Below, one piece after another: positions 22,514-24,895 of a stretch of DNA of 39,238 nucleotides. The DNA comes from an uncultured Prochlorococcus sp. (GTDB lineage: Bacteria; Cyanobacteriota; Cyanobacteriia; PCC-6307; Cyanobiaceae). Under the pieces are notes generated by a model. That model saw nothing but the letters and a program-made list of their open reading frames with translations. It was not told the DNA's origin and made no database searches. The position numbers and the translations under genes are program-made. Numbering within the stretch: the first letter of the stretch is position 1; each line of letters opens with the position of its first letter. The stretch is taken from contig CACBFH010000007.1 in NCBI GenBank assembly GCA_902538515.1, positions 1-39,238 of the forward strand, in the 5' to 3' direction.

Positions 22514-22584
22514 TAAATTAAATACTTAATTAAATTATAAGAGTTTATATAAATAAACAAACTATCTATCAGAGTTTCCTTAAG

Positions 22585-22666
22585 TGCGGTCGGGGAGACT
22601 TGAACTCCCACACCCGAAGATACGAGTACCTAAAACTCGCGCGTCTACCAATTCCGCCACGACCGC
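22585..22666 (-). tRNA. tRNA-Leu(UAG)
   Basis: Read on the reverse strand, the acceptor stem GCGGUCG pairs with CGACCGC and the discriminator is A, the leucine identity base. The anticodon stem CGAGT/ACTCG encloses TTTAGGT with anticodon UAG, and GTTCAAGTC forms the T-loop region. A long variable arm (TATCTTCGGGTGT) is present, as in class II tRNAs. No CCA is encoded. It is the isoacceptor for CUN leucine codons. Confidence 0.95.
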
Positions 22667-22786: not shown

Positions 22787-22822
22787 AATATTAGTTATAT
22801 TACTTAAAGAATATAAGAAACT

Positions 22823-23842
22823 ATTTCAAACTTAATCAGTAAAAATACAACGGAAAATTCTAATTCTTCAAAAACATTTAATTGGCAAAAAGAGATTAAA
22901 AATTACGTAGATCCGCCAAGTTTTTGGAATCCAACATTAGGTTTATTTTTTGGCGGTTATTTTCTTGCTTTTCTTAGCATATGGCAATGGTATAGAGGTG
23001 TTTGGCCTTTACCTTTACTTGTAGCTACTGCGTTTTTAGCTTTACATATTGAGGGTACTGTTATTCATGATGCCTGTCATAAAGCTGCTCATCCAGTACC
23101 TTGGATAAATCAAGCAATGGGCCATGGCTCAGCTATTCTATTAGGGTTTAGTTTCCCAGTTTTTACGAGAGTTCATTTACAACATCACATACACGTAAAT
23201 CACCCCAAAAATGATCCAGATCATATTGTCAGTACTTTTGGTCCAATTTGGCTAATTGCTCCAAGATTTTTTTATCATGAAGTTTTTTTCTTTCAAAGAA
23301 AACTTTGGCGAAGATATGAATTGCTACAATGGGGAATTGAAAGATCCATATTCATAACGATTATCTTGGCAGGTTTGAAATTTGACTTTATGAATTTAAT
23401 TTATAACTTATGGTTCGGCCCAGCATTAATGGTAGGAGTCACGTTAGGAATATTTTTTGATTATTTACCTCATAGACCATTTCGATCAAGAAATAAATGG
23501 ATAAATTCTCGAGTTTATCCAAGCAAATTTATGAATTTATTAATAATGGGACAAAATTACCACCTCATTCATCATCTTTGGCCTTCGATTCCTTGGTTTG
23601 AGTACAAAATAGCTTATGAAAAAACTAAGCCTTTATTGGATAAAAAAGGCTCCCCTCAAAGGGTAGGGATATTTGAAAGTAAAGAAGACATTTTTAACTT
23701 TATTTATGATTTATTAATAGGTGTAAGGAGTCATAGCAAAAAGAGGGGAAAAATAAGAAAAATTATAAATTTATATCCAGGCTTTAAAATAAAAAAATTT
23801 TTATTAAGGATAGTCAACAAAACATTTATTGGAAGCAACTAA
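22823..23842 (+). CDS. crtR: Beta-carotene hydroxylase (CrtR), no canonical start codon
   Basis: 339 residues if read from an ATT at 22823. A membrane diiron hydroxylase of the fatty-acid-desaturase superfamily that makes zeaxanthin, the main photoprotective carotenoid of Prochlorococcus. Counting from the ATT, the histidine boxes are HDACHKAAH (82-90), HLQHHIHVNH (118-127) and NYHLIHHLW (245-253). The first ATG in the frame (23117, residue 99) would delete the first box and a membrane helix. From the upstream in-frame TAA (22814-22816) to that ATG there is no ATG, GTG or TTG. The N-terminal text (VDPPSFWNPTLG) fits cyanobacterial CrtR, so the gene seems intact and starts at a near-cognate codon (ATT 22823 or ATC 22835), unless the sequence has an error. 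It converges on gatC with a 5-base gap. Confidence 0.88.
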   Translation: MSNLISKNTTENSNSSKTFNWQKEIKNYVDPPSFWNPTLGLFFGGYFLAFLSIWQWYRGVWPLPLLVATAFLALHIEGTVIHDACHKAAHPVPWINQAMGHGSAILLGFSFPVFTRVHLQHHIHVNHPKNDPDHIVSTFGPIWLIAPRFFYHEVFFFQRKLWRRYELLQWGIERSIFITIILAGLKFDFMNLIYNLWFGPALMVGVTLGIFFDYLPHRPFRSRNKWINSRVYPSKFMNLLIMGQNYHLIHHLWPSIPWFEYKIAYEKTKPLLDKKGSPQRVGIFESKEDIFNFIYDLLIGVRSHSKKRGKIRKIINLYPGFKIKKFLLRIVNKTFIGSN

Positions 23843-24141: not shown

Positions 24142-24310
24142 ACTTTTAATATTTCTCTTTAATAATAGTTTATTAAGAACAACTTATTTACATATCCTTT
24201 GAATTTCAAATAATTTAAAAAAAATTATCACATTTTTTTGAAAATCAATATCAATTCATAGCCTTAATTATTTTTCTCAGCTAAATATGATATTAGATAG
24301 ATATTAAAAA

Positions 24311-24895
24311 ATAGAAGAAGAATTATTTCCAAAAAATTTTTTTTATCGGCACTCTAAACTTGTTGCTCCTGATTTAATAGGCTGTCACCTCATAAAAAAA
24401 AATAATGAGATAGATCAAGTTAAAGGGGTGATTGTTGAAACTGAAGCTTATTCACAGGAAGAAGAGGCCTGTCATGGCTACCGCAAAATGACTGAATCAA
24501 ATAAATCATTATTTGGCAAACCTGGCACATTTTATATTTACAAATCTTATGGCATTCATCATTGTTTAAACATAGTTACTGATAAAGAAAATTTTGCGAG
24601 TGGTGTCTTGATAAGATCAGTTTTTATATCTAATAAAAATGAAAGATTAGCTTCTGGACCTGGCCTGGTAACTAAAACATTCAGTGTAGACATTTCATTT
24701 AACTCACTTGAAGTTCTTAATAACAAATCTTTATGGATTTCTCCACGAGACTTCACTCTAGAAGAAAAAGATTTTATTCAAACTACGAGAATTGGCATAT
24801 CAAAGGCAAAAAATATAAAATGGCGTTGGTATCTCAAAAATAGTAGGAGTGTAAGTAAAAGATTAAAAGGTGACAGAACACCTAAATTTAAATAA
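24311..24895 (+). CDS. 3-methyladenine DNA glycosylase (AAG/MPG family), no canonical start
   Basis: 194 residues if read from an ATA at 24311, the normal length for bacterial Aag/MPG base-excision enzymes that remove alkylated purines. The N-terminal FFYRHSKLVAPDLIGCHLI, the catalytic GVIVETEAYSQEEEACHG (VETEAY around residues 42-47), FGKPGTFYIYKSYGIHHCLNIV and ASGPGLVTK are all family blocks. A GTG at 24428 would give 155 residues but lose the conserved first strand. Upstream, an in-frame ATG (24287) is followed after six codons by TAA (24305-24307). So the gene begins at a near-cognate ATA or carries a start or nonsense mutation: ATG to ATA at 24311, or CAA to TAA at 24305, would each explain it. 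pyrB follows 21 bases later. Confidence 0.85.
   Translation: MEEELFPKNFFYRHSKLVAPDLIGCHLIKKNNEIDQVKGVIVETEAYSQEEEACHGYRKMTESNKSLFGKPGTFYIYKSYGIHHCLNIVTDKENFASGVLIRSVFISNKNERLASGPGLVTKTFSVDISFNSLEVLNNKSLWISPRDFTLEEKDFIQTTRIGISKAKNIKWRWYLKNSRSVSKRLKGDRTPKFK

Follow-up and report, generated by a model that had tools for sequence, protein, structure and literature searches.

The crtR locus and its reading frame

The DNA analysed here (the window) is a stretch of 39,238 nucleotides from an uncultured Prochlorococcus sp. It carries a crtR gene on the forward strand, in a frame that is open from position 22817 to 23839 and closed by TAA at 23840-23842 (Table 1). The best match of the encoded protein is NCBIfam NF045688 (470.2 bits, E 2.1e-141; the curated cut-off, 475, is slightly above this score), and by this best hit we name the product beta-carotene hydroxylase. 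The protein also matches Pfam PF00487 (119 bits, cut-off 29.7). A search of the window's own genome with PF04116 gave no match, the CrtR protein belonging with PF00487 instead, and a phage search using the crtR DNA likewise gave none. HDACHKAAH, HLQHHIHVNH and HLIHHLWPS were found in the translation; we take these to be the three histidine boxes of the desaturase-like family, all of which had been recognized in a first-pass annotation of this DNA. In several divergent genomes of the genus (L068-L074) the frame ends about 25 codons earlier than in the window.

The first ATG, GTG or TTG in the frame is the ATG at 23117, 3' of HDACHKAAH, and a mechanical list of open reading frames places the start of crtR only there. 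The first-pass annotation had pointed out that the full frame lacks a canonical start before 23117 and contains ATT at 22823 and ATC at 22835, and our reading of the frame agrees on each point.

Table 1. Features at and near the crtR locus (positions in the window; + is the forward strand)
Feature	Position	Strand	Basis
tRNA-Leu gene upstream of crtR	22584..22666	-	
TATATT, predicted -10 hexamer of the crtR promoter	22796..22801	+	constant spacing in relatives
Predicted short 5' leader, ~15 nt, without Shine-Dalgarno sequence	22808..22822	+	substitution pattern; transcription start inferred
In-frame stop TAA, closes the crtR frame upstream	22814..22816	+	sequence reading
ATT, proposed as the near-cognate crtR start (some relatives have ATC)	22823..22825	+	174-genome comparison
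crtR, beta-carotene hydroxylase (by best hit); 339 codons and a stop, counted from the ATT	22823..23842	+	NF045688 and PF00487 matches
First in-frame ATG, within the conserved domain, not the start	23117..23119	+	codon-position changes upstream
3-methyladenine DNA glycosylase-like neighbour (presumed); ATA 24311-24313 proposed as its start, none canonical before 24428	24308..24895	+	comparison

The proposed start codon across the genus

A protein search covered 200 genomes of the window's genus, sampled from a larger group, and matched 171; a family search covered 201 genomes and matched 198. The comparison set of 174 distinct genomes consists of 170 of the 171 from the protein search and four from the family search. 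One locus with crtR truncated on the 5' side (L076) was dropped, and loci of one genome were counted once (L072/L082, L080/L081). Named loci (the best 80 of 394) were kept out because many repeat the same contigs; these best 80 are all Prochlorococcus except three labelled uncultured Synechococcaceae cyanobacterium. Changes were counted for 169 taxa on a FastTree tree built from the crtR sequence downstream of the Trp of NWQKEI.

The first-pass annotation had proposed comparing the crtR start with that of other Prochlorococcus. All 174 genomes have ATT (164) or ATC (10) at the position matching 22823-22825, and ATG, GTG, TTG and ATA never occur there. The codon lies 20 codons before the Trp, or 16 where four codons are deleted (three genomes, L222-L224). 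In 158 genomes, the window's among them, the frame holds no canonical start from the previous stop to this Trp. The other 16 comprise five with ATG one codon before the ATT, one with ATG four codons before it, and ten with only a TTG or ATG 8 to 31 codons before it, overlapping or upstream of the TATATT.

Bases 1, 2 and 3 of the ATT/ATC codon show 0, 0 and 6 parsimony changes, base 3 being only T or C. ATA is found in all 32 columns downstream of the Trp in which isoleucine is the majority residue (at the lowest in 3 of 169 taxa), and at least nine of these columns hold ATG; the isoleucine codons summed over the 32 columns are ATT 2449, ATA 2213 and ATC 474. Because its first two bases do not change and it is never ATA, as against ATA in every downstream isoleucine column, the codon at 22823 is, on this comparison, more than an ordinary isoleucine codon. 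The six T/C changes represent few events, and conversion of ATT to ATG requires a transversion; both points weaken the argument from conservation.

A coding-type pattern of change sets in directly after the ATT/ATC, as judged from the alignment: changes per base are 11/1/17 in the Ser codon, 1/0/15 in the Asn codon and 11/3/2 in the Leu codon, where they are mostly TTA/CTA. A stop at the second codon before the ATT/ATC in 10 of the 174 genomes implies that initiation is not further upstream in those genomes. The near-cognate start suggested by the first-pass annotation is thus upheld for ATT 22823. It is not upheld for ATC 22835: of 169 taxa, 148 have C as the middle base of the matching codon, and only 12 have T.

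Predicted promoter and leader, and alternative starts

The distance from the end of TATATT to the start codon is nearly constant in the 174 genomes (21 nt in 160, 22 nt in 13 and 23 nt in one). Across the 169 taxa, bases -21 to -16 are variable (20-30 changes per base), and changes drop at -15, -14 and -13 (9, 10 and 5) and from -6 to -2 (10, 10, 6, 4 and 8). The spacing of TATATT, the variable stretch and the fewer changes at -15 to -13 suggest a -10 element followed by a leader some 15 nt long, and crtR mRNA probably has its own promoter with the TATATT at 22796-22801. GGAG or GAGG does not occur in the 20 nt upstream of any of the 174 starts, where only 14 AAGG and 10 AGGA were found. Prochlorococcus has been described, in the part of the source available, as likely not relying on Shine-Dalgarno sequences (PMC5607370).

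Near-cognate initiation of crtR at ATT 22823 is strongly supported by these comparisons of sequence. We consider it highly probable that crtR would be translated from the conserved AUU/AUC at 22823-22825, behind a probable promoter of its own and a leader of about 15 nt without a Shine-Dalgarno sequence, with initiation expected to be low and IF3-dependent. The initiator tRNA would pair with the AU of AUU, and CrtR would begin fMet-Ser-Asn-Leu. The low initiation, dependent on IF3 stringency, is expected by analogy with E. coli infC and with sigR.

Several other readings of the locus were weighed against initiation at the ATT. A start at ATG 23117, with the frame upstream untranslated, would use the first canonical start in frame, but HDACHKAAH would be lost. 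Moreover, third positions take most of the changes in the 80 codons between Trp 22877 and this ATG (1239, against 164 at first and 72 at second positions, in 169 taxa), and this region is therefore translated; the chance that 23117 is the true start is negligible. No greater credence can be given to the alternative offered by the first-pass annotation, an error in the sequence or a mutated start codon peculiar to the window's genome. That genome is a 74% complete draft in 50 contigs, but its relatives refute this explanation: ATT or ATC is present in 174 of 174 genomes, single-contig ones included, and also in MIT 9314 and MIT 9401.

The start could instead be one codon upstream, at the ACN codon at 22820-22822, with ACG as a near-cognate start. 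This codon is ACG in 112 of the 174 genomes and ATG in five, and its first two bases are fairly conserved, with 4 and 8 changes. Against such a start, 43 genomes have ACA, six (the window's included) ACT and three CCG, and TCG, AAG, ATT, GCA and AAA occur once each; ACA, ACT, CCG, TCG, GCA and AAA each agree with ATG at no more than one base. With 22 changes at its third base, this Thr codon has a partly coding-like pattern, which to that extent counts against a start at the ATT. We regard initiation at ACN as quite unlikely. Less likely still is that ribosomes starting further upstream or out of frame enter crtR through a frameshift or by reading through a stop. An element resembling ATGCAATC lies about 50 nt upstream of the crtR start, and suitable upstream starts could be those of the ten genomes with only a distant in-frame TTG or ATG, or the ATG or TTG that 12 of the 174 genomes have out of frame within the predicted leader. 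However, most genomes lack any given kind of upstream start. Those in frame overlap or precede TATATT, 39 of 169 taxa have A in place of the G in the ATGCAATC element, and ten genomes have the stop at the second codon before the ATT. The out-of-frame leader codons would be expected to compete with the AUU start, and in this respect they count against it.

For initiation at the ATT, the preferred reading, the genomes with an ATG close by bear on whether a weak start is needed. The five with an adjacent ATG do not sit side by side among the leaves of the tree, so this ATG has probably been gained repeatedly from ACG. Together with the ATG four codons upstream in one genome, they indicate that crtR can tolerate a strong start, at least for some time. 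The adjacent ATG in five genomes speaks against an absolute need for a weak crtR start and against strict selection for one. That crtR output is regulated through the AUU/AUC start we can only infer. In Prochlorococcus PCC 9511, crtR transcripts surge in the morning and are maximal by mid-morning, according to the available part of the source (PMC3441193). This timing shows expression and says nothing on translation.

Rarity, origin and known systems

In 22 of 25 crtR loci from other genera of the family (from 25 of the 182 matched genomes outside the window's genus), we identified an ATG 15-23 codons before the same Trp. Of the remaining three, L273 has an ATG, with its Trp unparsed; L282 is unparsed, a stop breaking the frame; and L277 (G202) has only a TTG, six codons before the Trp. 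Upstream of this last crtR, an ATG frame in another reading frame, possibly the usual crtR N-terminus, ends at TAG. ATG in other genera, set against ATT or ATC within the genus, suggests a probable origin of the near-cognate start at the base of this genus. The crtR N-termini of other genera align poorly with those of this genus.

To place crtR among other genes, we paired non-overlapping frames in two 200-kb stretches, each from a different single-contig genome of the genus (233 pairs). Twenty of these, in the rRNA operon, were left out; 36 of the other 213 were flagged, and 29 of the 36 listed. Seven flagged frames with less than 45% identity upstream are not among the 29, and scpA is, by our reading, one of the seven. 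Among the frames listed crtR comes first: in both genomes 82 aligned codons precede any canonical start, and changes in this stretch are mostly at third positions (8, 7 and 33). Given this first rank among 233 paired frames and the third-position changes, the missing canonical start of crtR is more than chance. The second among the protein genes listed is the frame beside crtR, presumably a 3-methyladenine DNA glycosylase-like gene (40 codons; changes 7/8/18), and the third frame listed (21 codons; changes 4/4/5) is without a coding pattern.

The glycosylase-like gene has ATA 7-9 codons before an FF motif in 117 of 123 distinct loci, other genera included (9 of 11 parsed loci); two more loci are unparsed. 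Of the other six, five have only ATT, or ATT with ATC, and one has neither. Some canonical codon lies upstream in frame in 19 of the 123 loci. A short in-frame ATG...TGA lies just upstream of this gene in many relatives.

Three further frames, which we assume to be cobS (L353-L372), scpA (L323-L326, L313:18510-19397) and CP12 (L317), were also inspected. In cobS of ten other-genus loci, ATT or TTT is followed by CTG near the start; among five genomes of the genus, two have TTG, and three show no canonical start ahead of the conserved part. For scpA, five genomes of the genus are without a canonical start upstream of a conserved QLGPRLL, where other genera mostly have TTG. The CP12 frame of genome G015 (L317, complement 4665-4432) has AAG at the position of a relative's ATG, with no canonical start in frame and a CTG two codons before the AAG. 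The glycosylase-like, cobS and scpA cases are leads, not results. It is conceivable, if rather doubtful, that Prochlorococcus keeps a small set of genes (crtR with AUU/AUC, the glycosylase with AUA, perhaps cobS with CUG/AUC) on conserved near-cognate starts, behind short leaders that have no Shine-Dalgarno sequence, tuned together by initiation-factor stringency in a genome with few regulators.

A literature search, with most subscription papers outside its scope, found no report of such a crtR start in Prochlorococcus. The near-cognate start belongs to the gene for the enzyme that makes zeaxanthin, a pigment that protects against light, in a phototroph abundant in the ocean, and it may keep translation of this key sunscreen enzyme weak or regulated. 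Start callers limited to ATG, GTG and TTG would truncate or omit crtR. To our knowledge, clade-conserved near-cognate starts are few in bacteria, and the best studied ones serve IF3-dependent control.

The E. coli infC gene, for IF3, starts with AUU, and this AUU mediates the autocontrol of IF3; such autocontrol through the infC AUU was reportedly described by Butler in 1987 and Sacerdot in 1996. Like infC, crtR would use a near-cognate AUU start. Unlike infC, it is a different gene without a Shine-Dalgarno sequence, and its link to IF3 is drawn by analogy. Since crtR is without a strong Shine-Dalgarno sequence, we propose that it works like infC, not that it is an infC-type gene. In the window's own genus, infC starts with ATG in nine of the ten loci read (L294 being out of register). 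In two other cyanobacterial genomes (L301, L302), a second infC-like gene lacks a canonical start from the previous stop up to the IF3 domain; the one in L301 has ATC after a GAGG.

The sigR gene of Streptomyces has a GTC start (GTC in 32 and GTT in 2 of 34) that is repressed by IF3, according to the available part of the source (PMC5472188). As described there, sigR differs from crtR in having a conserved, extensive ribosome-binding site, experimental proof and another first base. A strong compensating Shine-Dalgarno sequence of the sigR kind is absent at crtR, and we do not count this trait as defining near-cognate starts. The crtR start resembles the sigR start, as far as the source text available goes, in being near-cognate, pyrimidine-ending and conserved within a genus (ATT in 164 and ATC in 10 of 174). 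In chloroplasts and cyanobacteria, the native non-AUG starts given in the portion available of another source are UUG (infA) and GUG (psbC), and AUU and AUC appear there as engineered changes (PMC9845219). The AUU/AUC of crtR is unlike these native examples. It shares with them, as presented in that portion, a place in a photosynthetic lineage and a start that is conserved across species.
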